Source: Tragulus kanchil (lineage: Eukaryota > Chordata > Mammalia > Artiodactyla > Tragulidae). Taken from it: a stretch of DNA of 64,000 nucleotides. A program made the translations under genes and the position numbers. The DNA lies in the NCBI GenBank assembly GCA_022376925.1, contig JAIOJX010000030.1:166853084-166917083 (forward strand), read 5' to 3'. The notes under the pieces were generated by a model. It ran no database searches. It saw nothing but the letters and a program-made list of their open reading frames with translations, and was not told the origin of the DNA. Shown one piece after another: positions 2,406 to 64,000 of this stretch (its first letter is position 1; every line of letters begins with the position of its first letter).

Positions 2406-2419
2406 CAACCCACCAGTTG

Positions 2420-2515
2420 GGGTGAATCCCATGGACAGAGGAGCGGGGGTCGGGGGGTGGGGGGTACAGTTCATGGGGTCAAAAAAGAATTGGACACAAC
2501 TTAGTAAACAGTAAC
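2420..2515 (+). mobile_element. Bov-tA 3' remnant
   Basis: Contains the Bov-tA/BovB 3' body: 'gaatcccatggacagagg', a G-rich low-complexity run in place of the usual 'agcctggcaggcta', then 'acagttcatggggtc' and 'gaattggacacaactta'. Only the 3' half is present, consistent with a truncated insertion into the CHR element. This copy lies at the left edge of duplication 1; the second copy (3546-3650) has shorter G runs. Confidence 0.75.
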
Positions 2516-2524
2516 CCCGGGGTT

Positions 2525-2641
2525 GTCTGTACCTGGTCCAGTCACTCCACAGCACGTGGGATCTTCCAAGGCTAGGGATCAAACCAGTGCCCCCTGCACT
2601 GCAAGACAGACTCCTTACCCACTGGACCACCAGGGAAGCCC
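2525..2641 (-). mobile_element. CHR-type SINE, antisense, second part (tRNA head)
   Basis: The reverse complement starts with 'ggggcttccctggtggtcca' and continues 'gtgggtaaggagtctgtctt', the canonical head of CHR SINEs, then 'tgatccctagccttgg'. It overlaps in content with 2300-2400, so either two CHR copies or one copy disturbed by the Bov-tA insertion are present. Confidence 0.8.
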
Positions 2642-3540
2642 CAGTCGTTGTACTTTTACGTTTGCATGCGTGTGCTTGTTTTAGGTAGTTTCCTTTTTAA
2701 GAGATGAAACAGGCAAAAAGCCTTATCTTACCAAAGTCTCCTATCATTTCCATCACTCTTCATTTCCTTGTTTGGATCTCCATTTTGGTATTTTCCTTCT
2801 ACCCATGGAACTTTTAAATTCTCAATACTGCACGTCTGCTGTCAGTATAATCTGGCAGCTTTTGCTTGTCTGAAAAAGGATTTCTGTTTCATGTGGGAAG
2901 GACGTTTTCACTGCGTATAGAATTCTGGCTTTTTTATGCTGTGCTAGCGCTGTGACTTTCACTCTGTCGAATGTGGATATTGTAAGCATGTAAAGAGTAC
3001 TGGGTTTTGTGTGGGCGTGAGGTTCCTTGGAGTCCGGCAGGTTTGGGTGGTGAGTTTGAAGCGTCAGGGCAGATCCAGAGCGGCCTTCTAGGCTGACAGG
3101 CCCACGGCGGCGGCAGCACCCTTCTCAGCACTCCACTGACGTCTTTCCCCTCTGGCCGGGGGAGCAGGAACTCTTCCCAGCTCTGGAAGTTCTCAGGGTT
3201 GGTTAGTCTGCTGCTTTCCTGGGGCTTCTTTCTCCAGTCACAGGTGGCTTTCTACCTGAAGACTGATCAGCACAGACAGCAGGTTCTCAGGCTCGCTTGC
3301 TCCGTGTGCAGCAGGATGCCCCAGACTACAGACCCCGCCTTCGCCCCACAGTTCAGCTGGGATTGGGGTCCTCAGACTTGTGAACCGGGCGAGGGATGGT
3401 TGAGAAGGGGACATGGTCAGCAGTCTAGCCTTTCCTGAGCTACTGGAAGCCAAGAGCATTGTGACCGCTAGAGTCACTTATATTTCTGAGGGTTTAACTA
3501 ATCTCGCCCAGCAAAGTGTTACAGGATGGAAAATCTCATA

Positions 3541-4671
3541 CCCACCAGTTGGGGTGAATCCCATGGACAGAGGAGCGGGGTCGGGGTGGGGGTACAGTTC
3601 ATGGGGTCAAAAAAGAATTGGACACAACTTAGTAAACAGTAACCCCGGGGTTGTCTGTACCTGGTCCAGTCACTCCACAGCACGTGGGATCTTCCAAGGC
3701 TAGGGATCAAACCAGTGCCCCCTGCACTGCAAGACAGACTCCTTACCCACTGGACCACCAGGGAAGCCCCAGTCGTTGTACTTTTACGTTTGCATGCGTG
3801 TGCTTGTTTTAGGTAGTTTCCTTTTTAAGAGATGAAACAGGCAAAAAGCCTTATCTTACCAAAGTCTCCTATCATTTCCATCACTCTTCATTTCCTTGTT
3901 TGGATCTCCATTTTGGTATTTTCCTTCTACCCATGGAACTTTTAAATTCTCAATACTGCACGTCTGCTGTCAGTATAATCTGGCAGCTTTTGCTTGTCTG
4001 AAAAAGGATTTCTGTTTCATGTGGGAAGGACGTTTTCACTGCGTATAGAATTCTGGCCTTTTTATGCTGTGCTAGCGCTGTGACTTTCACTCTGTCGAAT
4101 GTGGATATTGTAAGCATGTAAAGAGTACTGGGTTTTGTGTGGGCGTGAGGTTCCTTGGAGTCCGGCAGGTTTGGGTGGTGAGTTTGAAGCGTCAGGGCAG
4201 ATCCAGAGCGGCCTTCTAGGCTGACAGGCCCACGGCGGCGGCAGCACCCTTCTCAGCACTCCACTGACGTCTTTCCCCTCTGGCCGGGGGAGCAGGAACT
4301 CTTCCCAGCTCTGGAAGTTCTCAGGGTTGGTTAGTCTGCTGCTTTCCTGGGGCTTCTTTCTCCAGTCACAGGTGGCTTTCTACCTGAAGACTGATCAGCA
4401 CAGACAGCAGGTTCTCAGGCTCGCTTGCTCCGTGTGCAGCAGGATGCCCCAGACTACAGACCCCGCCTTCGCCCCACAGTTCAGCTGGGATTGGGGTCCT
4501 CAGACTTGTGAACCGGGCGAGGGATGGTTGAGAAGGGGACATGGTCAGCAGTCTAGCCTTTCCTGAGCTACTGGAAGCCAAGAGCATTGTGACCGCTAGG
4601 GAGTCACTTATATTTCTGAGGGTTTAACTGCCAACACCTCTCGCCCAGCAAAGTGTTACAGGATGGAAAAT
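3541..4671. repeat. Duplication 1, copy 2
   Basis: Near-identical to 2409-3534, carrying its own copies of the Bov-tA remnant (3546-3650), CHR head (3657-3773) and antisense L1 tail (3777-4097). Sequence beyond 4671 diverges from whatever follows copy 1, so this copy is the one continuous with downstream DNA. Confidence 0.93.
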
Positions 4672-10540: not shown

Positions 10541-10622
10541 TACTGGGTTTTGATCAAGTGAGTTTTGACTGAAGGGGTCCTCTGAGCTCCTCTCCAGGTG
10601 CACACGGCCCCCTCTGTGGGTG

Positions 10623-11737
10623 GAGGGCCCTCTCCCCTGTGATCCCACCCAAGTGAGCCGAGCCTGCCGAGGCCTCCTCTTTCAGGTCCAAGGCCTGGGA
10701 AGAGACTCAACCCACTGGGCCGGACGACTCCCCGCTGCGGTGCCTGTCCTGCTGAAGGCAGTGTTCCTGGACTTGACGGGCTTGTCCACACTGGACTGCA
10801 CAGCTAGACTCAAAAGTCGGGGCCACAGCCGGGACCACCGTCCCCTTAGGCTGTCTGCCTGGGCACATCTGGTTCCACGCAGGGTCTCTGCTTACCTGTC
10901 CTGGAGCGAGGCTGCTTCTGAAGCCAGTAAGCGACAGGGCCCCCAGCCTCTGGGTTGGGCTGCCTCTCCCCCTGACACACCCCGACACACCCGAGCTCTG
11001 TTCGGGCTCCCTCTGCCTCATGGAGCTGGGTGATCCCAGCCTCTCTGTGTCTTCCTCACCCTGCAGCTAGATATGCTGCTCAGACAGCAGGAGCAGACCT
11101 GAAGACCGTGAAGACAAACCTAAGAGGAAACACACCGCGCCAGCCTGCCGCCCGAGGTGAAGACTTACGCTGGCTGCGCGGTCAGTGTCGCCGCACCACC
11201 CTTCCCTGTACAAACAGGGCAGCGCGCCACGGCTCCTGGGGGTCAGAGGCCATCTAGCCCAGAGTCGGCTCCTGGGGGTCAGCCAGCCTCTCGCCACTGC
11301 TCAGGGGTCTGCACGCCCTCAGTGTGCGGTCCTGTAACTTGCAATGAAACCGCCCCCCACCCCAGCGAAGCTTCCCACAGCCTCACCCCCAGGGAAGTGG
11401 CGGGCATTGGCAGAACCAACACAGCAGACTCAGCAGGCGAGCAGGCTCTGATCTGAGGCGGCCGGGAGGACTGGGTGGTAGTGGGATGCTTGACTCTTGG
11501 TCTGAGGTGCCAAGGTGTCGTCTGGCTTGTTTTGGGGGGGAGCCAGGACTCTCTGACCTTTGACCCAGCCCTCCAAGTTCCTCCATGGACAACCCCAGAC
11601 TTGGGGGGTCTGATTTTGAGGTGAAGGGTGCCAGGGGGTGCCCCACAGGGCCCAGGCTGCCTCCTGCAGCTCAGCTCTCTAGCCGTCTTGGGGGGGATGG
11701 GAAGGAGCAACCTTATCCCCTTAAAAATAGCCAGCTT
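10623..11737. repeat. Duplication 2, copy 1
   Basis: Repeated at 11743-12856 (offset about 1120) with a five-base spacer. Differences include a TC indel at 11289 against 12410 and one A in the run at 11723 against 12840. No repeat family or gene is recognised inside; the open frames, including the ones present in both copies, are unremarkable. Confidence 0.93.
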
Positions 11738-11742
11738 GTGGT

Positions 11743-12856
11743 GAGGGCCCTCTCCCCTGTGATCCCACCCAAGTGAGCCGAGCCTGCCGAGGCCTCCTCT
11801 TTCAGGTCCAAGGCCTGGGAAGAGACTCAACCCACTGGGCCGGACGACTCCCCGCTGCGGTGCCTGTCCTGCTGAAGGCAGTGTTCCTGGACTTGACGGG
11901 CTTGTCCACACTGGACTGCACAGCTAGACTCAAAAGTCGGGGCCACAGCCGGGACCACCGTCCCCTTAGGCTGTCTGCCTGGGCACATCTGGTTCCACGC
12001 AGGGTCTCTGCTTACCTGTCCTGGAGCGAGGCTGCTTCTGAAGCCAGTAAGCGACAGGGCCCCCAGCCTCTGGGTTGGGCTGCCTCTCCCCCTGACACAC
12101 CCCGACACACCCGAGCTCTGTTCGGGCTCCCTCTGCCTCATGGAGCTGGGTGATCCCAGCCTCTCTGTGTCTTCCTCACCCTGCAGCTAGATATGCTGCT
12201 CAGACAGCAGGAGCAGACCTGAAGACCGTGAAGACAAACCTAAGAGGAAACACACCGCGCCAGCCTGCCGCCCGAGGTGAAGACTTACGCTGGCTGCGCG
12301 GTCAGTGTCGCCGCACCACCCTTCCCTGTACAAACAGGGCAGCGCGCCACGGCTCCTGGGGGTCAGAGGCCATCTAGCCCAGAGTCGGCTCCTGGGGGTC
12401 AGCCAGCCTCGCCACTGCTCAGGGGTCTGCACGCCCTCAGTGTGCGGTCCTGTAACTTGCAATGAAACCGCCCCCCACCCCAGCGAAGCTTCCCACAGCC
12501 TCACCCCCAGGGAAGTGGCGGGCATTGGCAGAACCAACACAGCAGACTCAGCAGGCGAGCAGGCTCTGATCTGAGGCGGCCGGGAGGACTGGGTGGTAGT
12601 GGGATGCTTGACTCTTGGTCTGAGGTGCCAAGGTGTCGTCTGGCTTGTTTTGGGGGGGAGCCAGGACTCTCTGACCTTTGACCCAGCCCTCCAAGTTCCT
12701 CCATGGACAACCCCAGACTTGGGGGGTCTGATTTTGAGGTGAAGGGTGCCAGGGGGTGCCCCACAGGGCCCAGGCTGCCTCCTGCAGCTCAGCTCTCTAG
12801 CCGTCTTGGGGGGGATGGGAAGGAGCAACCTTATCCCCTTAAAAAATAGCCAGCTT
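11743..12856. repeat. Duplication 2, copy 2
   Basis: Near-identical to 10623-11737; continuous with the unique downstream DNA at 12857. A 210-213 codon minus-strand frame spanning copy 1/copy 2 is created by the junction and should not be called a gene. Confidence 0.93.
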
Positions 12857-14687: not shown

Positions 14688-15778
14688 CAGGTGGAGCTGG
14701 GGGAAAGAGGCTGGCTGATCAGCGTGGTCCCAGCTAGAACTCAAGACGGAGCACAGCTGGTGAGATGCTGGTGTCCACAAGTAAGTTCACTAGCGGCATG
14801 AGCTGAACCTGGGAACTGTGTCAGTTTGACTGAAGAAGTAGACATTAATTTTGTTCTCTTTTGGGAGGAGGAGATCAAGGTGGTGAGGCAGAGGGACGCA
14901 GAGCTCACTTCCCCCACAAACACATCAAAACTACGCCGCCTGGTGGAGCAGTTCTCACAGAACACCAGTGTGAGCAGGCCCATCTCAGCTACCTGGAGCT
15001 GCAGGCAGAACCCCCACGTAACCTGGTAAGAGCACAGGAAGAAACTGGGGCGAGGCAGGGCCAGGGCCCGAGGGAGGGACCGTGAGAGAGGCACCTCCTG
15101 TGCTGCCCGGAGGTCAGCCAGGGCCGAGCGGACGACGCTGACCACTCACGCAGCCGCCTCTCCACGCTTCCCCGCCCACGCCCGCCGCTGCGTACCTGCC
15201 TGCTGCTGCTGCTCGGGCGTCGGGAGAGCCCCGAGGAGGGGACTGGCTATCGGGGTGTGGTTCAGGCTGCAGTGGGGTTTGCTCTGGAAGCCTTGTTCTC
15301 AAGAGTGCTCGCAGCTTCCTTGGGCTTCAGTAGCTCACACTTGGTGAGCGTGCGCGTGCCCAAGGAAGGCGTGCAGGCCCATTCTGTGGCTGAGATACCG
15401 GGTGGCCGGCAGCGTGACAGAGTTGCCTGTCCCGGGAAGGGCGGGTGCTTCAGCCCCTCCATCCTCCCACTGCAGCTCAGAACCCTGTCTGGGGGCTCCT
15501 CCTCCAACTGGGGAGCAAACCCTAACCCCCAACAGGGTAGTGACCATCATCAGAGCACCAGACACAGCCCTCCCACCAAAAAAGCTGCCTGAGCTCTAGT
15601 CTACAGAGGGATGTTCCCACATAAAGTTTTCTAAGGCCACAGTGCATAACTTTCTCCTAAGTTTATAGAGTAAAAGAAGAAATGTAAAATGAATAAATAT
15701 AAATAATGAATCGATGAATTAAATAATGAAATGTAAAATGAATAGAGTGAAATTAAAAGTAGAGGAACTACTCCTGCT
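14688..15778. repeat. Duplication 3, copy 1
   Basis: Repeated at 15793-16882 (offset about 1105). Homopolymer differences sit near the junction: the start of copy 2 lacks a G (run at 14699-14703) and a T of 'ggtccc', and copy 1 lacks an A near 15759 relative to 16857-16862. The tail at 15660-15760 is AT-rich with an imperfect internal repeat of 'gaaatgtaaaatgaata'. Confidence 0.93.
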
Positions 15779-15792
15779 GAATCCCTAAGAAT

Positions 15793-16882
15793 CAGGTGGA
15801 GCTGGGGAAAGAGGCTGGCTGATCAGCGTGGCCCAGCTAGAACTCAAGACGGAGCACAGCTGGTGAGATGCTGGTGTCCACAAGTAAGTTCACTAGCGGC
15901 ATGAGCTGAACCTGGGAACTGTGTCAGTTTGACTGAAGAAGTAGACATTAATTTTGTTCTCTTTTGGGAGGAGGAGATCAAGGTGGTGAGGCAGAGGGAC
16001 GCAGAGCTCACTTCCCCCACAAACACATCAAAACTACGCCGCCTGGTGGAGCAGTTCTCACAGAACACCAGTGTGAGCAGGCCCATCTCAGCTACCTGGA
16101 GCTGCAGGCAGAACCCCCACGTAACCTGGTAAGAGCACAGGAAGAAACTGGGGCGAGGCAGGGCCAGGGCCCGAGGGAGGGACCGTGAGAGAGGCACCTC
16201 CTGTGCTGCCCGGAGGTCAGCCAGGGCCGAGCGGACGACGCTGACCACTCACGCAGCCGCCTCTCCACGCTTCCCCGCCCACGCCCGCCGCTGCGTACCT
16301 GCCTGCTGCTGCTGCTCGGGCGTCGGGAGAGCCCCGAGGAGGGGACTGGCTATCGGGGTGTGGTTCAGGCTGCAGTGGGGTTTGCTCTGGAAGCCTTGTT
16401 CTCAAGAGTGCTCGCAGCTTCCTTGGGCTTCAGTAGCTCACACTTGGTGAGCGTGCGCGTGCCCAAGGAAGGCGTGCAGGCCCATTCTGTGGCTGAGATA
16501 CCGGGTGGCCGGCAGCGTGACAGAGTTGCCTGTCCCGGGAAGGGCGGGTGCTTCAGCCCCTCCATCCTCCCACTGCAGCTCAGAACCCTGTCTGGGGGCT
16601 CCTCCTCCAACTGGGGAGCAAACCCTAACCCCCAACAGGGTAGTGACCATCATCAGAGCACCAGACACAGCCCTCCCACCAAAAAAGCTGCCTGAGCTCT
16701 AGTCTACAGAGGGATGTTCCCACATAAAGTTTTCTAAGGCCACAGTGCATAACTTTCTCCTAAGTTTATAGAGTAAAAGAAGAAATGTAAAATGAATAAA
16801 TATAAATAATGAATCGATGAATTAAATAATGAAATGTAAAATGAATAGAGTGAAATTAAAAAGTAGAGGAACTACTCCTGCT
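15793..16882. repeat. Duplication 3, copy 2
   Basis: Near-identical to 14688-15778. The 14-base spacer 15779-15792 matches neither flank cleanly. Confidence 0.93.
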
Positions 16883-16889
16883 TAAGAGA

Positions 16890-20044: not shown

Positions 20045-20232
20045 GAGCTGACTCGCTGCAAAAGACCTTGATACTGGGAAAAGACTGAGGGCAGGAGGAG
20101 GCATCGCTGGCTCAGTGGACATGAGTCTGAGCAACCTCAGAGACAGTGAAGGACAGGGAAGCCTTGAGGTGCTGCCGTCCACAGGGTGGCAAACAGTCAC
20201 ACACAACAACAACAGCAGCAACAAACACATTA
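20045..20232 (+). mobile_element. Bov-A2 / BovB 3'-end fragment
   Basis: Contains 'gaccttgatactgggaaaag', 'actgagggcaggaggagg', 'gctcagtggacatgagtctg', 'gacagggaagccttgaggtg' and 'ggtggcaaacagtcacacac', the ordered blocks of the BovB 3' end shared with Bov-A2. Diverged, with an ACA-rich tail. The part from 20118 is repeated at 21217-21330. Confidence 0.8.
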
Positions 20233-20402
20233 CCTACCAGGCGATCTTTTAAACTGTATATATACTACCTGTTCCTCATAACTGCCCTATGAGAGAACCA
20301 CCGTTATCAACATTTTAAACATGAGACAGGGAGGTTGAGAATCCTGCCCGAGGCTACACAGTTCCAGAGGAGGTGCGTGCCCAGGCCTTTTGGCTCCAGC
20401 TG
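20230..20402 (-). mobile_element. MIR-type SINE, antisense
   Basis: Blocks 'cctcataactgccctatgag', 'ttatcaacattttaaacatg', 'gagacagggaggttgaga' and 'gaggctacacagttccagag' match the antisense of the ancient MIR consensus in order. Repeated at about 21329-21501. Confidence 0.65.
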
Positions 20403-20527
20403 GGCTTGCTAGCCTGCAGCTACCCGGCTCCTGCCTGTTGGTGCTTCCAGCTCTGGGCTGGTTTGGACCTCCTAAAACATCACCCCGCTACCCACTGGGC
20501 TCACCCATCGTGATCCACCCCGTGAAG

Positions 20528-20767
20528 TTTTTTTTTTTTTTTCTTTTTTTCGGCCACTTCTATTGATCTTTTATTTATTTATCTTTGTTCTTTGGCCTGT
20601 GGGGGCCTCCCATTGCAGTGGCCTCTTGCTGCAGAGCTCCAGCTTGGTAATTGGACACATTGGTCCGGCCGCTCCACAGCACGTGGGATCCTCCCAGGCC
20701 AGGTCGAACCGGCGCCCCTTGCACTGCAAGGCGGTGTCCTTACCCACTGGACCACCAGGGAAGCCCC
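20528..20767 (-). mobile_element. CHR-type SINE, antisense, with long tail
   Basis: The right end reads 'actggaccaccagggaagcc' (reverse complement of the SINE start) and the left end is the poly(A)-type tail seen as a T-run at 20528-20550. Between lie 'cgaaccggcgccccttgc' and 'gcacgtgggatcctccca'. Repeated at 21627-21867, where the T-run is two bases longer. Confidence 0.85.
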
Positions 20768-21216
20768 ACCCTGTGAAGGTTTTGCATGTATTTTTGAAAT
20801 TCTAGAGGAGGCTAGAACTCTGTCCTGTCCCACCTGGCTCAGAATTTTTTTTCTGCTTTGGCTGAATCTCTCTGGACCAAGGGAGTCCAGCTCTAAACAC
20901 ACCATGTTTACCCCATCCTGACCTTTAAGCACAAATTGAAACAAGATGCTAAAAGTTGCTTAACATTCTGGAAAGAAAGCTTCGTAGTTAATAAAAGAAA
21001 AAAAGAAATTTGAGTATGATTTAAAGGAAGGCTTCTAGAGGACATAACAAGAAGAGAGTGTGGGAAATGTAGTGGGGACGGTAACTGGCTAAACCACAAG
21101 CACAGGAACCACTATAACCTGGAAAAGAAAATCAGTGGATGGCTTGGGGAGCATCTTCAGTGCCCCTAAGAGGACACCTAAGCCTGCCAACAAAGTGCCC
21201 TTGACCATGGACAAGT

Positions 21217-22305
21217 GACATGAGTCTGAGCAACCTCAGAGACAGTGAAGGACAGGGAAGCCTTGAGGTGCTGCCGTCCACAGGGTGGCAAACAGTCACA
21301 CACAACAACAACAGCAGCAACAAACACATTACCTACCAGGCGATCTTTTAAACTGTATATATACTACCTGTTCCTCATAACTGCCCTATGAGAGAACCAC
21401 CGTTATCAACATTTTAAACATGAGACAGGGAGGTTGAGAATCCTGCCCGAGGCTACACAGTTCCAGAGGAGGTGCGTGCCCAGGCCTTTTGGCTCCAGCT
21501 GGGCTTGCTAGCCTGCAGCTACCCGGCTCCTGCCTGTTGGTGCTTCCAGCTCTGGGCTGGTTTGGACCTCCTAAAACATCACCCCGCTACCCACTGGGCT
21601 CACCCATCGTGATCCACCCCGTGAAGTTTTTTTTTTTTTTTTCTTTTTTTCGGCCACTTCTATTGATCTTTTATTTATTTATCTTTGTTCTTTGGCCTGT
21701 GGGGGCCTCCCATTGCAGTGGCCTCTTGCTGCAGAGCTCCAGCTTGGTAATTGGACACATTGGTCCGGCCGCTCCACAGCACGTGGGATCCTCCCAGGCC
21801 AGGTCGAACCGGCGCCCCTTGCACTGCAAGGCGGTGTCCTTACCCACTGGACCACCAGGGAAGCCCCACCCTGTGAAGGTTTTGCATGTATTTTTGAAAT
21901 TCTAGAGGAGGCTAGAACTCTGTCCTGTCCCACCTGGCTCAGAATTTTTTTTCTGCTTTGGCTGAATCTCTCTGGACCAAGGGAGTCCAGCTCTAAACAC
22001 ACCATGTTTACCCCATCCTGACCTTTAAGCACAAATTGAAACAAGATGCTAAAAGTTGCTTAACATTCTGGAAAGAAAGCTTCGTAGTTAATAAAAGAAA
22101 AAAGAAATTTGAGTATGATTTAAAGGAAGGCTTCTAGAGGACATAACAAGAAGAGAGTGTGGGAAATGTAGTGGGGACGGTAACTGGCTAAACCACAAGC
22201 ACAGGAACCACTATAACCTGGAAAAGAAAATCAGTGGATGGCTTGGGGGAGCATCTTCAGTGCCCCTAAGAGGACACCTAAGCCTGCCAACAAAGTGCCC
22301 TTGAC
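21217..22305. repeat. Duplication 4, copy 2
   Basis: Near-identical to copy 1, containing second copies of the Bov-A2 remnant, MIR and CHR SINE (21627-21867). Confidence 0.93.
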
Positions 22306-27520: not shown

Positions 27521-27536
27521 GCTTGGAGCAGCCTGA

Positions 27537-28574: not shown

Positions 28575-28765
28575 CCTTGCAGTGCAAGGGGCGTCAGTTC
28601 AATCCCTGGCCTGGGAAGATCCCACGTGCTGCGGAGTGGCTGGACCGATGTGTTCAACTACTGAGCCAGAGCTCTGGAGCAAGCGAGGCCACTGCAATGG
28701 GAGGCCCACATAGGCCAAAGAACAAAAGATGGATGAAAATAAATAAATGAAAGACCAATAGAAGT
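28541..28765 (+). mobile_element. CHR-type SINE
   Basis: Starts 'gggcttccctggtggtccag', has B-box 'gttcaatccctgg', then 'gaagatcccacgtgctgcgg', 'gccactgcaatgggaggccc' and a tail 'gatgaaaataaataaatgaa'. A 35-base head of the same element ends copy 1 at 27486-27520. Confidence 0.85.
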
Positions 28766-30475: not shown

Positions 30476-30507
30476 AAACACCCCCGTTTGCTCAAGGTGA
30501 GGATCCC

Positions 30508-34792: not shown

Positions 34793-34798
34793 GGGCAG

Positions 34799-41268: not shown

Positions 41269-41342
41269 GCACGGCCCCCGAGTCGCATTCTTTCCTCGTG
41301 TCAAATCGGGCCTTACACCAGCTCTTGAATACTCATCTGAAC
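41269..41342. other. Garbled junction spacer
   Basis: The left half (41285-41306) is a noisy version of 42406-42432, which lies just past copy 2. The right half (41307-41342) is a noisy version of 40197-40245, which lies just before copy 1. This is what two low-quality contig ends placed end to end would look like. Confidence 0.85.
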
Positions 41343-43403: not shown

Positions 43404-44541
43404 AGAAGCATATTTTCAATTACGATGATGAACCCTTTATTGATTTGTCCTTTTACAAATCTTAGGATCATAAGAAATCTTAGTGCCTGATGCAAGGTCA
43501 CAAAGATTCTGTTCTATTTTCCCCCCAGATTTACAGTCTGGGGTTCTATACTTAGGCCTGTGGGCCATGGTGATGTGAAGTGTGGCTCCATGTTCATTGG
43601 TTGCATATGGAAGCCCAATTACTCCAGCACCATTTGTTGAAAAGATACGCTTTTTCTCCTGCACTGTCTTTGCACATTGGTCAAAAATCAGCGGTACAGC
43701 CTGCTATCCGTCTCATACTATTGGTTTTCCTCAAATTTCTGTTGTTCCTTGGTGGTTCCTTTGCATTTCCGAAAGAAGGCACTTTCTTTGATGACCTACT
43801 CACATCTGAGGAAGAACCACAAGGTGACAAGACCAGGGAACCTTCAGGGGCTTCCTCTCTCCTGGTCCCACCTGTCTCCACCTCGTTCTCCCCTCTGGAT
43901 GGGGAGGGCTTTGGACTCTGCGGAAGCAGACGACATCCCCCTGCCTTCTCCCCAGCCTCTTTCTCTTTTGGGTGTGTGTGCAGGCGGCAGGAGGTGTCCT
44001 GAAGCCTGTGAGGAGTGCAGGTTTAGCATCTTCCAGCCCTGGGCTCATGGCCTTTCCTGTGGCCCCCCACTGTGGGTCATGGAAGTCCAGAGGGACCTGG
44101 AGATCCCTCACAGTTCCAAAGCTCCTTGCCTATCTCACTCGCACCCTGATTTTTCCCCCTTTGGGGAAGGGGAGCTCTCGTCATGATGCTGGCCTGCTCC
44201 AGAGCCCCTGGGAGGCCACCCTCAGCTCCCAGAAGTCAACTGCAGCCATGTCTGCTCCAGTTCTCTGTCAGCCTTTCACAGTCTGCTTTCTGTTCTACAG
44301 AAAACTCTCAGTCTTTTTTGGTGAGCTGAGAGTGATTTGTCTTATTTTCCCACATTTTTAATGCATTAGGCTTTTTTCCTTTCATTTGAAATGGTCTTTG
44401 GAGGAGGCAGAAGAATGAGGGTTATTTTGAGCTTGGAAGTCCTACTGACGGTCATAAGGGTAGGGGACACGTGAACTCACTTTCCCACAGAACGCCATTA
44501 AGTCATCCCCAGAGACAGACAGCAGGCTGGACAGATCGCCA
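43404..44541. repeat. Duplication 11, copy 1
   Basis: Repeated at 44541-45681 (offset 1137-1140) with no spacer. Copy 1 lacks single G residues present in copy 2 at about 43903/45041, 44450/45586 and 44493/45633; the last two are close to the junction. Confidence 0.93.
43440..43735 (-). mobile_element. L1 LINE ORF2 fragment, antisense
   Basis: The plus strand carries the antisense L1 phrases 'gcatatggaagcccaattac', 'tccagcaccatttgttgaaa', 'tttgcacattggtcaaaaat' and upstream 'cctgatgcaaggtcacaaag', in L1 order. Duplicated at about 44577-44872. Open frames across it (including 260 codons at 44717-45499) are therefore not genes. Confidence 0.75.
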
Positions 44542-45681
44542 GAAGCATATTTTCAATTACGATGATGAACCCTTTATTGATTTGTCCTTTTACAAATCTT
44601 AGGATCATAAGAAATCTTAGTGCCTGATGCAAGGTCACAAAGATTCTGTTCTATTTTCCCCCCAGATTTACAGTCTGGGGTTCTATACTTAGGCCTGTGG
44701 GCCATGGTGATGTGAAGTGTGGCTCCATGTTCATTGGTTGCATATGGAAGCCCAATTACTCCAGCACCATTTGTTGAAAAGATACGCTTTTTCTCCTGCA
44801 CTGTCTTTGCACATTGGTCAAAAATCAGCGGTACAGCCTGCTATCCGTCTCATACTATTGGTTTTCCTCAAATTTCTGTTGTTCCTTGGTGGTTCCTTTG
44901 CATTTCCGAAAGAAGGCACTTTCTTTGATGACCTACTCACATCTGAGGAAGAACCACAAGGTGACAAGACCAGGGAACCTTCAGGGGCTTCCTCTCTCCT
45001 GGTCCCACCTGTCTCCACCTCGTTCTCCCCTCTGGATGGGGGAGGGCTTTGGACTCTGCGGAAGCAGACGACATCCCCCTGCCTTCTCCCCAGCCTCTTT
45101 CTCTTTTGGGTGTGTGTGCAGGCGGCAGGAGGTGTCCTGAAGCCTGTGAGGAGTGCAGGTTTAGCATCTTCCAGCCCTGGGCTCATGGCCTTTCCTGTGG
45201 CCCCCCACTGTGGGTCATGGAAGTCCAGAGGGACCTGGAGATCCCTCACAGTTCCAAAGCTCCTTGCCTATCTCACTCGCACCCTGATTTTTCCCCCTTT
45301 GGGGAAGGGGAGCTCTCGTCATGATGCTGGCCTGCTCCAGAGCCCCTGGGAGGCCACCCTCAGCTCCCAGAAGTCAACTGCAGCCATGTCTGCTCCAGTT
45401 CTCTGTCAGCCTTTCACAGTCTGCTTTCTGTTCTACAGAAAACTCTCAGTCTTTTTTGGTGAGCTGAGAGTGATTTGTCTTATTTTCCCACATTTTTAAT
45501 GCATTAGGCTTTTTTCCTTTCATTTGAAATGGTCTTTGGAGGAGGCAGAAGAATGAGGGTTATTTTGAGCTTGGAAGTCCTACTGGACGGTCATAAGGGT
45601 AGGGGACACGTGAACTCACTTTCCCACAGAACGGCCATTAAGTCATCCCCAGAGACAGACAGCAGGCTGGACAGATCGCCA
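44541..45681. repeat. Duplication 11, copy 2
   Basis: Near-identical to 43404-44541, including the antisense L1 piece. Continuous with unique DNA beyond 45681. Confidence 0.93.
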
Positions 45682-46606: not shown

Positions 46607-46655
46607 TCCTTTCCATAAAAGTAAAAATGTTCAGTATTTGTATAATACATATAAT

Positions 46656-46862
46656 GTGCTCAGTCATGTCTGACTCTTTGTGACCCTTTGGAATGCAGCC
46701 CACCAAGCTCCTCTGTTCATGGAATTTTCCCAGCAAGAATACTGGAGCAGGTTGCCATTTCCTCCTCCAGGGGATCTTCCCCACCCAGGGACTGAACCTG
46801 TGCCTCCTGTGGCTCCTGCGTTGGCAGGCAGCGTCTTTGCCACTGAGCCATCTGGGAAGCCC
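46656..46862 (-). mobile_element. Bov-tA SINE, antisense
   Basis: The plus strand begins 'gtgctcagtcatgtctgact' and ends 'ccactgagccatctgggaag', with 'ttgccatttcctcctccagg' and 'cccagggactgaacctgtgc' between: a full-length antisense Bov-tA. Flanks 'ataatacatataat' and 'ataatacatgtaac' are a probable target-site duplication. Duplicated at 47738-47944. Confidence 0.93.
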
Positions 46863-46924
46863 ATAATACATGTAACAAACAAGATCAATACAAATATCCT
46901 CCTCTATTTCCTCACCTTTCCCTT

Positions 46925-47047
46925 GCACCTTTTGTTTTTGGCTATACCACATGACTTGTGGGCTCTTAGTTCTCCGACCAGGGATAGAATCTGCGACCCT
47001 TGCAGTGGAAGCCTGGAGTCATAACCACTGGACCACCATGGAAGTCC
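46925..47047 (-). mobile_element. CHR-2-like tRNA SINE, antisense
   Basis: Right end 'ccactggaccaccatggaag' is the reverse complement of the SINE head; interior 'ctccgaccagggatagaatc' holds the B-box; left end 'gtttttggctataccacatg' is its 3' body. Duplicated at about 48007-48129. Confidence 0.85.
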
Positions 47048-47544
47048 CTCCTTTGCATTCTTAGAAACATCCAAAAGTCATCAGGATCTTAGAGGTAGGT
47101 TTAACCAATGTTCACCCTGTGGGAAGGGCTAGGCATGGGCATTGCTATTTCTTCCTTATTTGCACGATGGCTCCAAGCACTTGGAACGACCACCCCATTC
47201 TCCTGAAGAGGAAGTTCAGCTCTGAGAGGGACATCACGTGCCCAGGGTGAGAGCAGTGTTCGGGATGCAGACTCCCCGAAACCCCACCTCCAGCTTTTCC
47301 CTCAGCTCTGTGGCCAAGGAACTCGGTAACCACAGATGGGACCTAATGTACCTGCTCCTTGGCTAGTTTTCCTTGAAGCAAGAATATAAACAGAACAACT
47401 TAATTCCCATAAACTTATGAAATGTTACTTTTCCTATTAAAATTATATAGTATTTCACAAAGACACGACACTGGAAAGAATGCATATAATCTCTGCACAC
47501 ACCCCACCCCCCTGCCCCATCTTCTTTAAGAAATGAACATTGCT

Positions 47545-47685
47545 AATCCAACTCATTGCAGCCCATCCAGTATTGCTGCCGAGAGAATGCCATGGGCAGA
47601 GCAGCCTGGCGGCTACACTCCATCGGGCTGCACAGAGTCAGACGACTGAAGCAACCGCACACAGATACAACTCATCCTGCCTGGG
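47545..47685 (+). mobile_element. Bov-tA/BovA body fragment
   Basis: 'ctcattgcagcccatccagt', 'attgctgccgagagaatgcc', 'atgggcagagcagcctggcg' and 'gcacagagtcagacg' follow the Bov-tA 3' body, without a tRNA head. The better copy is 48631-48775. Confidence 0.75.
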
Positions 47686-47688
47686 GTT

Positions 47689-48775
47689 TCCTTTCCATAA
47701 AAGTAAAAATGTTCAGTATTTGTATAATACATATAATGTGCTCAGTCATGTCTGACTCTTTGTGACCCTTTGGAATGCAGCCCACCAAGCTCCTCTGTTC
47801 ATGGAATTTTCCCAGCAAGAATACTGGAGCAGGTTGCCATTTCCTCCTCCAGGGGATCTTCCCCACCCAGGGACTGAACCTGTGCCTCCTGTGGCTCCTG
47901 CGTTGGCAGGCAGCGTCTTTGCCACTGAGCCATCTGGGAAGCCCATAATACATGTAACAAACAAGATCAATACAAATATCCTCCTCTATTTCCTCACCTT
48001 TCCCTTGCACCTTTTGTTTTTGGCTATACCACATGACTTGTGGGCTCTTAGTTCTCCGACCAGGGATAGAATCTGCGACCCTTGCAGTGGAAGCCTGGAG
48101 TCATAACCACTGGACCACCATGGAAGTCCCTCCTTTGCATTCTTAGAAGCATCCAAAAGTCATCAGGATCTTAGAGGTAGGTTTAACCAATGTTCACCCT
48201 GTGGGAAGGGCTAGGCATGGGCATTGCTATTTCTTCCTTATTTGCACGATGGCTCCAAGCACTTGGAACGACCACCCCATTCTCCTGAAGAGGAAGTTCA
48301 GCTCTGAGAGGGACATCACGTGCCCAGGGTGAGAGCAGTGTTCGGGATGCAGACTCCCCGAAACCCCACCTCCAGCTTTTCCCTCAGCTCTGTGGCCAAG
48401 GAACTCGGTAACCACAGATGGGACCTAATGTACCTGCTCCTTGGCTAGTTTTCCTTGAAGCAAGAATATAAACAGAACAACTTAATTCCCATAAACTTAT
48501 GAAATGTTACTTTTCCTATTAAAATTATATAGTATTTCACAAAGACACGACACTGGAAAGAATGCATATAATCTCTGCACACACCCCACCCCCCTGCCCC
48601 ATCTTCTTTAAGAAATGAACATTGCTAATCCAACTCATTGCAGCCCATCCAGTATTGCTGCCGAGAGAATGCCATGGGCAGAGCAGCCTGGCGGCTACAC
48701 TCCATCGGGCTGCACAGAGTCAGACGCGACTGAAGCAACTTCGCACACACGAGATACAACTCATCCTGCCCTGGG
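47689..48775. repeat. Duplication 12, copy 2
   Basis: Near-identical to 46607-47685, with second copies of the antisense Bov-tA (47738-47944), CHR-2-like SINE (48007-48129) and BovA fragment (48631-48775). Confidence 0.93.
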
Positions 48776-50065: not shown

Positions 50066-50074
50066 TGTCAAAGT

Positions 50075-50768: not shown

Positions 50769-50840
50769 GGGAGGCTGTATCTTAGAGAAAGGACTCATGA
50801 ATTCCTGAAGCAGTTTACAGCGAGGAGGTAAATACAATGT

Positions 50841-51990
50841 GAGATCGGTCACCTTGACTCAGGAAGGCCCAATGACCTTCTATGAACTCACTGTGTTATG
50901 AGTTTATCAAAATTCAAAACTGTGTTAGTTTGTAAGGAACTGGCAAACTGTGTAATACTTTTTTAAACTGTAGTTTTTTCCTAAAGAACCTAAAATATTT
51001 ATTTGTGTGTATGTGTGTTAGTTGCTTAGTCACTTACTTAACCAACCCTTTGGGACCGCATGGATTGTAGCCTGCCAGGCTCCTAGGCTCATGGAATTCT
51101 CCAGGTAAGAACACTGGAGTGGGTAACCATGCCCTTCCCCAGAAAATATATACTGATCACTGCCTAATTTTTGGTAACTTTATCTTTATATTTAGCCTTA
51201 CATTTTCATCAGCTACTTTGTGAAAGGTAAATTCCTACTTCTGCCTGAAGAGAAAAATGATTTCCCTCTGATTTATATCAAGTGGCGCATCCATTAAGCT
51301 AAAATAAGGTTAACCATTCTTGGAAAAGTCCTGTGGGAAAGGACAAGGAAAAGAAATCATGACAGCGGAGCAGGGCCTTGTCAGCACAGGAGCAGGGTGA
51401 TCACATGCTGTTACTGGGAGAAACACACACCAATCACGGCCGGCGAGGCTTCGCTCTCGGGGCAGCAGGAGTGACCCCACGTGTCATGGCAACCACTCAG
51501 TGCTGCCTTCAGGCACCAGCTGAACAGGCTTCTAGCTGGAGACGGGCCTGGGCGCAGGCCAACGGGGCGCTCCTGCTCCCCTGGGGCCGTGTCCACCCCA
51601 TGGCGTGTGGGCTGCCTGTGGTTCATGCTGAGGCAGAGTCTACGTGACTCAGGAACGAGATGGAAACATCGAAGCCACGTGATGTGCAAATGTGCCCACT
51701 CGACACGCCACTCATTTACAAGTTGACAGGATAATTACTTAAAACTACAGAGACCACGTTTTTCGAGGCCAATCTTTCAATGATGCAATGCTGAAATCTG
51801 GGAGGTGCGAAAAAAGGGAGCCATCATCACCTGTGTATTGCAAAGTCTGAACAAAAGTAACAGCGCTGTGCTCATAGCGAACCAGTACGTGCAGAATCAT
51901 GTCCTGCACACATATCACAGGTGATGGTATTAAGGACACTGGAGGGCCACGTGACAAATTGCCAGCTAAAATGCAGAATGTACTCTGAAG
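50841..51990. repeat. Duplication 13, copy 1
   Basis: Repeated at 52007-53188 (offset 1166). From 51957 copy 1 degrades into a compressed version of copy 2 (missing about 30 bases relative to 53125-53165) before the junction. Confidence 0.93.
51012..51142 (-). mobile_element. Bov-tA/BovA fragment, antisense
   Basis: 'tgtgttagttgcttagtcac', 'tgggaccgcatggattgtag', 'cctgccaggctcctaggctc', 'gaacactggagtgggtaacc' and 'atgcccttcccca' are the reverse complement of the BovB-derived body; the tRNA head is absent. Duplicated at about 52178-52308. Confidence 0.85.
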
Positions 51991-52006
51991 AGTTACGGGG
52001 GTTTGG

Positions 52007-53188
52007 GAGATCGGTCACCTTGACTCAGGAAGGCCCAATGACCTTCTATGAACTCACTGTGTTATGAGTTTATCAAAATTCAAAACTGTGTTAGTTTGTA
52101 AGGAACTGGCAAACTGTGTAATACTTTTTTAAACTGTAGTTTTTTCCTAAAGAACCTAAAATATTTATTTGTGTGTATGTGTGTTAGTTGCTTAGTCACT
52201 TACTTAACCAACCCTTTGGGACCGCATGGATTGTAGCCTGCCAGGCTCCTAGGCTCATGGAATTCTCCAGGTAAGAACACTGGAGTGGGTAACCATGCCC
52301 TTCCCCAGAAAATATATACTGATCACTGCCTAATTTTTGGTAACTTTATCTTTATATTTAGCCTTACATTTTCATCAGCTACTTTGTGAAAGGTAAATTC
52401 CTACTTCTGCCTGAAGAGAAAAATGATTTCCCTCTGATTTATATCAAGTGGCGCATCCATTAAGCTAAAATAAGGTTAACCATTCTTGGAAAAGTCCTGT
52501 GGGAAAGGACAAGGAAAAGAAATCATGACAGCGGAGCAGGGCCTTGTCAGCACAGGAGCAGGGTGATCACATGCTGTTACTGGGAGAAACACACACCAAT
52601 CACGGCCGGCGAGGCTTCGCTCTCGGGGCAGCAGGAGTGACCCCACGTGTCATGGCAACCACTCAGTGCTGCCTTCAGGCACCAGCTGAACAGGCTTCTA
52701 GCTGGAGACGGGCCTGGGCGCAGGCCAACGGGGCGCTCCTGCTCCCCTGGGGCCGTGTCCACCCCATGGCGTGTGGGCTGCCTGTGGTTCATGCTGAGGC
52801 AGAGTCTACGTGACTCAGGAACGAGATGGAAACATCGAAGCCACGTGATGTGCAAATGTGCCCACTCGACACGCCACTCATTTACAAGTTGACAGGATAA
52901 TTACTTAAAACTACAGAGACCACGTTTTTCGAGGCCAATCTTTCAATGATGCAATGCTGAAATCTGGGAGGTGCGAAAAAAGGGAGCCATCATCACCTGT
53001 GTATTGCAAAGTCTGAACAAAAGTAACAGCGCTGTGCTCATAGCGAACCAGTACGTGCAGAATCATGTCCTGCACACATATCACAGGTGATGGTATTAAG
53101 GACACTGGAGGGCCACGTGACAAATCATGTGACACCCAACTCCTGGCAGCTAACATATGCAGAATGTACTCTGAAGACATGTATACAA
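52007..53188. repeat. Duplication 13, copy 2
   Basis: Near-identical to 50841-51990; its last 76 bases overlap the start of duplication 14. Confidence 0.93.
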
Positions 53189-53521
53189 CTCCACGTACAG
53201 CACCCCAGTTCCCTCCCCATCTCTGGGACCACAGGCAGTTCTGGACAACAGTGACTACTGTTTGAACCCCTAAGGGAGAAGGCTGGTGGGTCACCCCACC
53301 TGCAGCATGCAGGCAGTCTCCATGAGAGGAGATGCCCTGTGACATGAGGGGTGCCTGAGAGCTCACACAGTCCGGGCATCGGTTTAGGGACGGGAACACA
53401 GAACCCAAGGCCGGGAGACTCGCCCAAGCTTCCAGGGATTCTCCACCCAGAGCTCACACCAGAATCCAGGCTTCAGCATCATAAACTCCTAGAGGGCTGC
53501 TGGTTAAGGTCCCTTCACCCT

Positions 53522-53960
53522 GGGTCCCCAACCAGCCCCTGGGCCACAGACGGGTACTTGTCTGGTCTCCCATCTAAATACTAACCAGGCCTGACCCTGC
53601 TTAGCTTCCGAGATCCAATGAGATCAGGCGTGTGCAGGGTGGTATGGCTGTAGAGCGGGTCTGTAGTCTGTCAGGAACCAGGCCGCACAGCAGGAGGTGC
53701 GCAGTGGGCAAGTGAGTGAAGCTTCATCTATGTTTCCAGGTGCGCCCATTACCACCTGCGCTCCCACTGACTGTGCATTATAGGGGAAATTTTATAATTA
53801 TGTCACTATATGTCAAAATGTAATAATTATAGAAATAAAGTGCACGAGAAATGTAATGTGCTAGAATGATCTTGAAATAATCCCTCCTCCACCCTGGTTC
53901 CATGGAAAAGTGGTCTCCTGTGAAAACAGTTCCCGGTGCCAGAAAAGCTGGGGAGCGCAG
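53522..53960. mobile_element. hAT-type non-autonomous DNA transposon with nested 5S sequence
   Basis: Left end 'gggtccccaaccagcccctg' and right end 'gtgccagaaaagctggggag' are diverged terminal inverted repeats of the same family as 1260-1605. The interior has 'caggaaccaggccgcacagc' and an AT-rich middle (53790-53850). A 5S-derived piece interrupts it at 53563-53655. Duplicated at 54588-55024. Confidence 0.65.
53563..53655 (-). pseudogene. 5S rRNA pseudogene nested in hAT element
   Basis: The plus strand is the reverse complement of 5S rRNA: 'ggtctcccatctaaatacta', 'accaggcctgaccctgctta', 'gcttccgagatccaatgaga', 'gggtggtatggctgtagagc'. The 5' end of 5S is complete and the last about 30 bases are missing. 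With several substitutions and a truncated 3' end, it is a dead retrocopy or a fused 5S-containing SINE. Duplicated at 54629-54721. Confidence 0.9.
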
Positions 53961-54177
53961 CCTTAAACCAAGGCATGTGTCAATCTGAGTACAGGGGTTC
54001 TAACCCCCAATAAAATGTTTCCCCCCAACTCCACTCTCCTCTGCTCCCAGAGTCAGGGCCGGCCTCTGAGGATCCCTCCCTAGGAGGACAGCACGGCCCT
54101 CTCTGAGAAGAGACAGGCAACCACAGAGTCACCAGGTCAAGGGGAAGATGTTGCTCTTGAACACCCAACTCCTGGCA

Positions 54178-55226
54178 GCCACGTGACAAATCATGTGACA
54201 CCCAACTCCTGGCAGCTAACATATGCAGAATGTACTCTGAAGACATGTATACAACTCCACGTACAGCACCCCAGTTCCCTCCCCATCTCTGGGACCACAG
54301 GCAGTTCTGGACAACAGTGACTACTGTTTGAACCCCTAAGGGAGAAGGCTGGTGGGTCACCCCACCTGCAGCATGCAGGCAGTCTCCATGAGAGGAGATG
54401 CCCTGTGACATGAGGGGTGCCTGAGAGCTCACACAGTCCGGGCATCGGTTTAGGGACGGGAACACAGAACCCAAGGCCGGGAGACTCGCCCAAGCTTCCA
54501 GGGATTCTCCACCCAGAGCTCACACCAGAATCCAGGCTTCAGCATCATAAACTCCTAGAGGGCTGCTGGTTAAGGTCCCTTCACCCTGGGTCCCCAACCA
54601 GCCCCTGGGCCACAGACGGGTACTTGTCTGGTCTCCCATCTAAATACTAACCAGGCCTGACCCTGCTTAGCTTCCGAGATCCAATGAGATCAGGCGTGTG
54701 CAGGGTGGTATGGCTGTAGAGCGGGTCTGTAGTCTGTCAGGAACCAGGCCGCACAGCAGGAGGTGCGCAGTGGGCAAGTGAGTGAAGCTTCATCTATGTT
54801 TCCAGGTGCGCCCATTACCACCTGCGCTCCCACTGACTGTGCATTATAGGGAATTATATAATTATGTCACTATATGTCACAATGTAATAATTATAGAAAT
54901 AAAGTGCACGAGAAATGTAATGTGCTAGAATGATCTTGAAATAATCCCTCCTCCACCCTGGTTCCATGGAAAAGTGGTCTCCCGTGAAAACAGTTCCCGG
55001 TGCCAGAAAAGCTGGGGAGCGCAGCCTTAAACCAAGGCATGTGTCAATCTGAGTACAGGGGTTCTAACCCCCAATAAAATGTTTCCCCCCAACTCCACTC
55101 TCCTCTGCTCCCAGAGTCAGGGCCGGCCTCTGAGGATCCCTCCCTAGGAGGACAGCACGGCCCTCTCTGAGAAGAGACAGGCAACCACAGAGTCACCAGG
55201 TCAAGGGGGAAGATGTTGCTCTTGAA
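54178..55226. repeat. Duplication 14, copy 2
   Basis: Near-identical to 53112-54161, with second copies of the hAT element and 5S pseudogene. Confidence 0.93.
54629..54721 (-). pseudogene. 5S rRNA pseudogene (duplicate of 53563-53655)
   Basis: Same truncated 5S sequence, present because of duplication 14. Confidence 0.9.
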
Positions 55227-56201: not shown

Positions 56202-57278
56202 AGTGAGTCAAACTGCGGTATTCCTCGGCCTCACCCAAGTGGGACCCAGCCCCAGGGGCAGGACAGCATCACCCTCTTGCTGGCTCTTCACTTGTACCTT
56301 TCTGGCTGCAGATTCTAGATAAAGGTCACAAGTAAGAGCTCTGTACTCGAGGTATTTCCTAGCTGGTTACAGTATCTGTCCAGCAACCTCTTCTTGCTTT
56401 CAAGTCATCTGAGGTATGAAGCACGCAGCACTAGCTGGGGACGCTGCTTTAATCGCACACATCCCCACCACCACTGCCCTGCCAGCCAGCATCCACAGAG
56501 AGGACTAGACACCGAGGAGCTGGGGCGAGGCCATCAGCACAAAGAGGGAGCACTGTTCTTATTGCCTCTGGAGCTGAGCATCTGTTTCTTTCAGAATCCT
56601 GTTCCCCAGATATAAAATGTAGCTCATGTGACTTTTAATTAATGACTACAGGGAACGGGAATGAATTTTGCCAGCTGATTTTGATATACAATAAAATAAC
56701 AGTTAATAACAAACAAGAAAACCATTTAAGTACATATGCATATGACATTACTAACCTGTGAGTCAGAGCCAAACCAACTAAGCCATATAATTCATATTTC
56801 ACACTCAGGGTGAAAGTCATGTTAACTTAACTGAAAAAGCACTACCAAAGTTAAGTATCTTTAAGCAGGGGTTGACTTTTCACAACTTTTTGCCTTGCAC
56901 TTGATAATTGTTCTTTTTTCAGCATTTTTACTGCTGAAGACCCATCTTTTCAGAAGAAAATTGAAAGGAGAAGAAGGTGATTTGTGTCCTTGTGTTAAAT
57001 AAGAAGCTGGGCTATCACCACACTATTTGATTTGGAAAATGAACAATCAAATGTATTGCATTCTGTGAGATGATCCAACCTTTTCCTGTCTCACAAAACC
57101 TTCCATATGTACCATACGCTGAGGAAAAGAGGAAAAGGTAAGACAAAGGGGAATGAGAACACCACACAAGGTGTGTTTCTCAGCTGTATTTTACTAGAAA
57201 GTTATGGCAGATTTTCCTCTAAGTAATTTTAAATACAGCTTATTACTGTTATTTTAAAATGCATTTTAAAATACTAAT
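56202..57278. repeat. Duplication 15, copy 1
   Basis: Repeated at 57297-58373 (offset 1095). Differences: 'ggctgcagatt' at 56303 against 'ggctcagatt' at 57399, and one C in 'ttttccc' at 57213/58307. Content unrecognised, AT-rich from 56.6 kb. Confidence 0.93.
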
Positions 57279-57296
57279 TTTTATATTTGAGCATTT

Positions 57297-58373
57297 AGTG
57301 AGTCAAACTGCGGTATTCCTCGGCCTCACCCAAGTGGGACCCAGCCCCAGGGGCAGGACAGCATCACCCTCTTGCTGGCTCTTCACTTGTACCTTTCTGG
57401 CTCAGATTCTAGATAAAGGTCACAAGTAAGAGCTCTGTACTCGAGGTATTTCCTAGCTGGTTACAGTATCTGTCCAGCAACCTCTTCTTGCTTTCAAGTC
57501 ATCTGAGGTATGAAGCACGCAGCACTAGCTGGGGACGCTGCTTTAATCGCACACATCCCCACCACCACTGCCCTGCCAGCCAGCATCCACAGAGAGGACT
57601 AGACACCGAGGAGCTGGGGCGAGGCCATCAGCACAAAGAGGGAGCACTGTTCTTATTGCCTCTGGAGCTGAGCATCTGTTTCTTTCAGAATCCTGTTCCC
57701 CAGATATAAAATGTAGCTCATGTGACTTTTAATTAATGACTACAGGGAACGGGAATGAATTTTGCCAGCTGATTTTGATATACAATAAAATAACAGTTAA
57801 TAACAAACAAGAAAACCATTTAAGTACATATGCATATGACATTACTAACCTGTGAGTCAGAGCCAAACCAACTAAGCCATATAATTCATATTTCACACTC
57901 AGGGTGAAAGTCATGTTAACTTAACTGAAAAAGCACTACCAAAGTTAAGTATCTTTAAGCAGGGGTTGACTTTTCACAACTTTTTGCCTTGCACTTGATA
58001 ATTGTTCTTTTTTCAGCATTTTTACTGCTGAAGACCCATCTTTTCAGAAGAAAATTGAAAGGAGAAGAAGGTGATTTGTGTCCTTGTGTTAAATAAGAAG
58101 CTGGGCTATCACCACACTATTTGATTTGGAAAATGAACAATCAAATGTATTGCATTCTGTGAGATGATCCAACCTTTTCCTGTCTCACAAAACCTTCCAT
58201 ATGTACCATACGCTGAGGAAAAGAGGAAAAGGTAAGACAAAGGGGAATGAGAACACCACACAAGGTGTGTTTCTCAGCTGTATTTTACTAGAAAGTTATG
58301 GCAGATTTTCCCTCTAAGTAATTTTAAATACAGCTTATTACTGTTATTTTAAAATGCATTTTAAAATACTAAT
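57297..58373. repeat. Duplication 15, copy 2
   Basis: Near-identical to 56202-57278, continuous with unique DNA after 58373. The spacer 57279-57296 is AT-rich and matches neither flank cleanly. Confidence 0.93.
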
Positions 58374-62401: not shown

Positions 62402-62644
62402 GCGGTTAGCCAAGAGAACTGGTTAGGCGTTAAAATACAGCCGGATAGCAACTATTCTTAAGGAATCCCAGGGCCTTGCAGGGATCCAAGGCTGCTCATT
62501 GCCAGAAAGCAGGGCCATCTCCAAAGCAAGCAGGTACTTCTCTTCTGTAAGATCTCCACGGAAGGACTACTAAAAAGAGGACTTCATTTCCTAGAGGCCA
62601 AAAGTTCCCTGTGGCACTCAACCGAGAAGAAGTTTGTTATTTAC

Positions 62645-63257
62645 CCTGAGAAAACTGTAATTCAAAATGACACATGCCTGCCCTCAATGTTCACTGCAGC
62701 ACTGTGGACAACAACCAAGTCATGGACACAATCCAGATGTTCATCGACAGAGGAATGAATAAAGAAGATACGGTACATACAGACAATGGAAGATTACTCA
62801 GCCATAAAAAATGAACAAAACAGAGTCATTTTTAGAGATATGGATGGACCTAGGGTCGGTCATACAGAGTGAAGTAAGTCAGAAAGAGGAAAAACAAGCA
62901 TCGTATATTAACACATGTGGAATCTAGAAAAATGGTACACGTGAACCTATTTGCAGGGCAGGAATAGAGCTGCAGACACACAGAATGGACTTGTGGACAC
63001 AGATGGGGAAGAGGAGGGTGGGATGAATTGGGAGACTAGATCTGACATATAACTGCTACCATGGATGAAATAGACAGCTAGTGTGAACCTTCTGGATAGC
63101 ACTTAGGGCTCTGTGGTGACCTAGAGGGGTGGGATGTGGGTGTGTGGGAAGGAGGCTCAGGAGGGAGGGTACACATGTATAAAGCTGATTCACACCGTTG
63201 CACAGTGGAAACCAACACAGCACTGTAAGGCAATTATACTCCAATAAAAAAAGAGGT
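62645..63257 (+). mobile_element. L1 LINE 3' end
   Basis: 'ttcaaaatgacacatgcctg', 'caatgttcactgcagcactg', 'tcatcgacagaggaatgaat', 'aaagaagatacggtacatac', 'ttactcagccataaaaaatg', 'gatatggatggacctagggt' and a final 'gcaattatactccaataaaa' follow the L1 3' end. 5'-truncated as most L1 copies are. Partly repeated at 63752-64000. Confidence 0.88.
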
Positions 63258-63265
63258 CTTTTATT

Positions 63266-63513
63266 GGGCTTCCCTGGTGGTCCAGTGGGTAAAGAGTCCG
63301 CCTTGCAGTGCAAGGGGCACAGGTTCGATCCCTGGCCCAGGAAGATCCCACATGCCGAGGAACAGCTGGACCAGTGTGTCCAATTGGGAGCCAGCACTCT
63401 GGAGCACATGCGCCCAGAGCCAATGCTCTGCAACGAGAGAGGCCACTGCAATGGGAGGTCCACACAGGCCAAAGAATATAGATGGATGAAAATAAATAAA
63501 TGAAAAACCAATG
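63266..63513 (+). mobile_element. CHR-type SINE
   Basis: Head 'gggcttccctggtggtccag', B-box 'ggttcgatccctggcccagg', body 'aagatcccacatgccgagga', 'caacgagagaggccactgca', tail 'gatgaaaataaataaatgaa'. It sits directly at the L1 poly(A) end. Confidence 0.88.
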
Positions 63514-63521
63514 GGTTAGCA

Positions 63522-64000
63522 AGAACTGGTTAGGCGTTAAAATACAGCCGGATAGCAACTATTCTTAAGGAATCCCAGGGCCTTGCAGGGATCCAAGGCT
63601 GCTCATTGCCAGAAAGCAGGGCCATCTCCAAAGCAAGCAGGTACTTCTCTTCTGTAAGATCTCCACGGAAGGACTACTAAAAAGAGGACTTCATTTCCTA
63701 GAGGCCAAAAGTTCCCTGTGGCACTCAACCGAGAAGAAGTTTGTTATTTACCCTGAGAAAACTGTAATTCAAAATGACACATGCCTGCCCTCAATGTTCA
63801 CTGCAGCACTGTGGACAACAACCAAGTCATGGACACAATCCAGATGTTCATCGACAGAGGAATGAATAAAGAAGATACGGTACATACAGACAATGGAAGA
63901 TTACTCAGCCATAAAAAATGAACAAAACAGAGTCATTTTTAGAGATATGGATGGACCTAGGGTCGGTCATACAGAGTGAAGTAAGTCAGAAAGAGGAAAA
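63522..64000. repeat. Duplication 16, copy 2 (cut by window end)
   Basis: Matches 62415-62893 with the same offset throughout; the remainder would lie beyond the window. Confidence 0.92.

Follow-up and report, generated by a model that had tools for sequence, protein, structure and literature searches.

Tandem pairs and other features of the window

The window, i.e., the whole stretch of 64,000 nucleotides analysed here, harbours 16 direct head-to-tail pairs, from 2404-4671 to 62404-64000 (Table 1), which were recovered by self-BLASTN of the 64-kb sequence (same strand, word size 16, E-value 1e-20, at least 150 bases and at least 90% identity). The two copies of a pair are 98.7% to 99.9% identical, and the repeat distance ranges from 1059 to 1171 bases over the 16 pairs (mean 1107, SD 32, CV 2.9%). 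The original prediction had described 16 direct duplications of near-identical sequence and had proposed a self-alignment as a check; this alignment returns 16 direct pairs, each at a distance within 3 bases of the offset previously listed. Among the 15 full pairs, the copies overlap by 1-10 bases in five, abut exactly in one, and are separated by spacers of 3-74 bases in nine. Pair 16 is truncated inside copy 2 by the end of the window, hence its 490 aligned columns only. N bases are absent from the whole window.

Table 1. Coordinates, identity and distance of the 16 tandem pairs in the window
Pair	Extent	Copy 1	Copy 2	Spacer	Identity (%)	Distance (bases)	Remarks
1	2404-4671	2404-3534	3535-4671		98.7	1131	
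2	10615-12856	10615-11737	11737-12856		99.6	1122	
3	14688-16882	14688-15778	15793-16882	14 bases	99.7	1105	
4	20114-22305	20114-21205	21214-22305		99.6	1100	
5	26478-28579	26478-27525	27537-28579		99.1	1059	
6	29406-31573	29406-30475	30505-31573		99.5	1099	
7	31586-33756	31586-32672	32670-33756		99.9	1084	
8	33617-35967	33617-34797	34788-35967		99.3	1171	L1 ORF2 reverse-transcriptase sequence
9	35996-38180	35996-37090	37088-38180		99.8	1092	
10	40246-42371	40246-41268	41343-42371	41269-41342	99.4	1097	
11	43404-45681	43404-44541	44541-45681		99.7	1137	
12	46607-48775	46607-47685	47689-48775		99.2	1082	
13	50838-53125	50838-51959	52004-53125	51960-52003	99.9	1166	
14	53112-55226	53112-54161	54178-55226		99.4	1066	5S-rRNA-like element in each copy
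15	56202-58373	56202-57278	57297-58373		99.8	1095	
16	62404-64000	62404-62893 (visible part)	63514-64000		99.4 (490 columns)	1110	Truncated by window end

When the self-search was loosened (both strands, E-value 1e-5), 44 same-strand and 31 opposite-strand pairs were obtained. The same-strand class of at least 97% identity comprises 17 matches, namely, the 16 tandem pairs and a by-product of 140 bases that pairs 7 and 8 generate together, and none of the 31 opposite-strand pairs in the whole window reaches 95% identity. Since the most similar class holds nothing but these pairs and their by-product, with no counterpart on the opposite strand, the tandem pairs are not due to chance. The remaining self-matches lie for the most part (53 out of 58) at 72.5-90% identity, a pattern that old dispersed repeats would give.

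With regard to sequence content, 19 frames drawn from the 188 open stretches of at least 90 residues were searched against Pfam, and a reverse-transcriptase match was the only one found, in two of the 19 frames. These are the two copies of pair 8, where RVT_1 scores 22 bits, below the Pfam cut-off of 29.6; the first copy matches LINE-1 ORF2p with an E-value of 3e-35. The repeat-like reading frames of the window presumably agree with the ruminant origin implied in the original prediction. The minus strand carries a 5S-rRNA-like element at 53541-53655 and again at 54607-54721 (57.3 bits against Rfam RF00001), its double occurrence being due to its location within pair 14; it might be a pseudogene or a SINE derived from 5S rRNA. 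Content differs from one pair to the next, as the original prediction had stated, pairs 8 and 14 being those to which a content was assigned. Copy length is independent of content, as all 16 pairs have nearly a single length though their sequences differ. The segment 6001-10000, which is free of tandem pairs, has a G+C content of 67-71% and a CpG observed/expected ratio of 0.52-0.58, the highest among the 2-kb bins. It may represent a CpG-island promoter; none of the three frames tested there has a Pfam match.

Differences between copies, spacers and unit sizes

All 16 pairs were aligned, and the 60 differences between copies were placed in three zones, namely, the first 120 columns, the middle, and the last 120 columns, the latter drawn from 15 pairs as pair 16 is truncated. 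The copy starts carry 21 differences in 1920 columns (10.9 per kb), the middle 18 in 13215 columns (1.4 per kb), and the copy ends 21 in 1800 columns (11.7 per kb). Hence, 42 of the 60 differences lie no more than 120 columns away from an end of the copy, at a rate approximately eight times that of the middle.

The differences are also directional. At the copy starts, where it is copy 2 that touches the junction, bases are missing from copy 2 in 17 out of 18 indels, while at the copy ends, where copy 1 touches the junction, they are missing from copy 1 in 18 out of 19. Junction-side losses thus account for 35 of the 37 end-zone indels (Fisher p = 2e-8, with events taken as independent). As indels within one pair are not independent, a count by pair was added. 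End-zone indels occur in 14 pairs, i.e., in all but pairs 7 and 13; of these 14, 13 lean towards junction-side loss, none leans against it, and one, pair 6, is tied (p = 0.0002). In other words, erosion affects the ends at which the two copies face each other, whereas the ends pointing outwards are intact.

The differences had previously been described as mainly homopolymer indels near the junctions. This description proved half right: out of 46 indels, 25 alter the length of a run of at least two equal bases, but only 16 are in runs of at least four, and 21 are of other kinds, so that homopolymers are frequent without accounting for everything. What stands out is rather where the differences lie and which side has lost bases. 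In the interior, nine substitutions occur in 13215 columns; interior differences are lacking altogether in six of the 16 pairs and number at most one in 11. In each of pairs 5, 8 and 14, the copies differ internally by two or three single-base substitutions, which may be heterozygous positions at which the two consensus units received different calls.

Eight spacers of at least eight bases (pairs 3, 4, 5, 6, 10, 13, 14 and 15) were compared with their flanks, the three-base spacer of pair 12 being left out. The first test scored the best local match to the flanks. The second was stricter, requiring the spacer to be accounted for by the flanks starting at its ends, and used 300 controls. One of these controls scored 70.5 for pair 10, probably because the spacer itself had been drawn, which prompted a third test applying the stricter model with 1000 controls kept away from the locus. 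The spacers of pairs 10 and 13 resemble their flanks in all three tests, with p values, uncorrected for the eight spacers, of 0.002, 0.013 and 0.001 for pair 10 and of 0.002, 0.007 and 0.002 for pair 13. The spacer of pair 3 shows a weak resemblance to the sequence after copy 2 (uncorrected p = 0.0005, 0.037 and 0.024). Upon correction for eight spacers in the third test, pairs 10 and 13 stand and pair 3 falls. For pair 14, the first test gave a p value of 0.034, but the second and third gave 0.76 and 0.78, and the spacers of pairs 4, 5, 6 and 15 displayed no flank resemblance in any of the three tests. Flank resemblance is therefore clear in two of the eight spacers, weak in a third, and not significant in five.

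The spacers of pairs 10 and 13, and weakly that of pair 3, resemble a base-poor version of the sequence following copy 2, so that a unit would there have continued, at low quality, beyond the part held in common. The pair 10 spacer also resembles the sequence preceding copy 1 and is probably a degraded overhang from the units on both sides; that of pair 13 is probably a degraded read-through of the left unit.

Cutting the window at its junctions yields 15 unit lengths, the 15th relying on an estimated end at 63513, which range from 2128 to 8203 bases. Four of the 15 units measure 2.1-2.3 kb, roughly the length of two adjoining overlaps, and this is the minimum; with the same number of random breaks, the probability that every step would reach at least 1021 bases is 0.002. 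Such a minimum would resemble that of edges between nodes of fixed length. In two of these four units, and thus in two of all 15, the neighbouring overlaps themselves overlap, by 140 and 14 bases. The first case concerns the start of pair 8 and the end of pair 7, whose common 140-base stretch occurs in three successive units, as it would for two slightly overlapping nodes.

Origin of the tandem pairs

Taken together, these features indicate that the 16 pairs are almost certainly unmerged overlaps, either of graph-edge units or of contigs, and very probably reflect the software rather than the animal. In each pair, copy 1 seems to close one consensus unit and copy 2 to open the next, the two units representing the same DNA there and both being poor at their free ends. 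Directional loss is what such an arrangement would produce, because the junction-side end of each unit would be a thinly supported consensus. The window may accordingly be pictured as a row of consensus units, 17 or more in number, derived from an assembly of noisy long reads, in which neighbouring units would share a single graph node of roughly 1 kb. In the normal course, the program would align two unit ends and merge them; here, this merge would have failed or been skipped and the units written consecutively, each shared node being printed twice, head to tail.

As to the nature of the units, they are likely assembly-graph edges sharing a node of about 1 kb, produced most plausibly by wtdbg or wtdbg2. 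Graph edges fit better than separate contigs because the units measure 2.1-8.2 kb, are joined without N, and share one overlap length of about 1 kb. A wtdbg2-type assembly appears to be the best candidate, with nodes that would span 1024 read bases and a separate consensus step that would build contigs from the edge sequences; a consensus of about 1.1 kb could arise from 1024 read bases if the raw reads are rich in deletions or the overhangs ragged. The joining step of wtdbg2 normally merges nodes, and slightly overlapping nodes are allowed. Against this explanation as a whole, the mean distance of 1107 exceeds the node length of 1024 by 8%, five of the eight spacers show no significant flank resemblance, pairs 7 and 13 lack end-zone indels, and pair 6 is tied. 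The sequence itself bears nothing that names the assembly program. Furthermore, in the accessible part of PMC10250393, a cattle ONT assembly made with wtdbg2 measures 2.70 Gb, a size similar to that tabulated there for ARS-UCD1.2; as wtdbg2 would thus not usually inflate genomes, a special failure or version would be needed.

The original prediction had invoked abutted, unmerged contig overlaps. Directional end decay, the flank-like spacers (clear in two of eight, weak in a third, without signal in five) and the 140-base stretch found in three units all argue for an unmerged overlap. The term contigs fares less well, since the pieces are probably consensus units of one contig, i.e., graph edges sharing a fixed-length node. 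The alternative closest to the former wording, which we regard as unlikely, is that the units are independent short contigs with overlapping ends, ordered and abutted by a scaffolder, a gap filler, a submission script or later record processing. The identical duplication and end-decay pattern would be expected from such contigs, but their overlaps should vary freely, in contrast with the CV of 2.9%, and a long-read assembly is unlikely to place contigs of 2-8 kb without any N.

A k-mer graph built on a single, very long k, of which MBG in verkko, working in homopolymer-compressed space, is an example, would leave unmerged node overlaps of fixed length k. It would explain both the near-constant overlap and units no shorter than about two overlaps. 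However, homopolymer compression (mean repeat length 788) brings no gain in constancy, with a CV of 3.4% versus 2.9% for the raw sequence, and copies that should match fully are decayed at their ends, being identical after compression in only three of the 16 pairs. This possibility, which we consider very improbable, is largely refuted by the decay at the copy ends and by distances that range over 1059-1171 bases.

Scarcely more credit, and in fact slightly less, can be given to a false heterotype duplication, in which the copies would be two alleles. The nine interior substitutions in 13215 columns would suit it, those of pairs 5, 8 and 14 maybe being heterozygous sites, but alleles do not account for a nearly single length in all pairs, for directional differences piled at the junction sides, or for the six pairs without interior difference and the 11 with at most one. 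Least probable of all, to the point of being negligible, are real tandem duplications, i.e., a cellular process copying about 1.1 kb at many sites in one recent episode: the sequence as given does read that way, but the process would have to delete bases where the two copies face each other, as in 35 of the 37 end-zone indels, and leave a degraded flank copy between them. The allelic and the real duplication were both rejected on the directional ends. We are not aware of any process that would place 16 copies of equally recent age and uniform length within 64 kb, nor of any duplication mechanism that erodes both facing ends.

Consequences and comparison with known systems

If the pairs are unmerged overlaps of consensus units, about 16.6 kb from the 15 full pairs and 0.5 kb from pair 16, i.e., about 17 kb or 27% of the window, would be false. 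Users of the record would then face an inflated sequence length, together with spurious segmental duplications and spurious copies of repeats and of the 5S-like element. The combination of a fixed length with directional end loss would constitute a signature that can be scanned for without reads.

Among the papers listed by a literature search (titles and abstract openings), no account of an unmerged-node failure of the wtdbg2 kind was found, and the artefact goes unmentioned in the available portions of PMC8228171, PMC11457506, PMC12005167 and PMC7247394. The general class of false duplications has been well documented, and those named homotype by the Vertebrate Genomes Project are, according to the accessible text of PMC9516828, the closest in kind: one stretch is represented twice as erroneous sequence failed to collapse, and gene or exon gains can be mimicked. 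The pairs described here differ from that account (PMC9516828, same portion) by their nearly fixed size of 1.1 kb, by copies that abut, or nearly so, without N, and by errors located at the unit ends.

Normal wtdbg2 output would be expected with its nodes merged, whereas in the window they would be doubled. The resemblance lies in the fuzzy Bruijn graph of wtdbg2, which, as far as the available sections describe it, takes 1024-bp read stretches as graph points (PMC7506008) and writes edge sequences from which contigs are made by a separate consensus step (PMC8434745).
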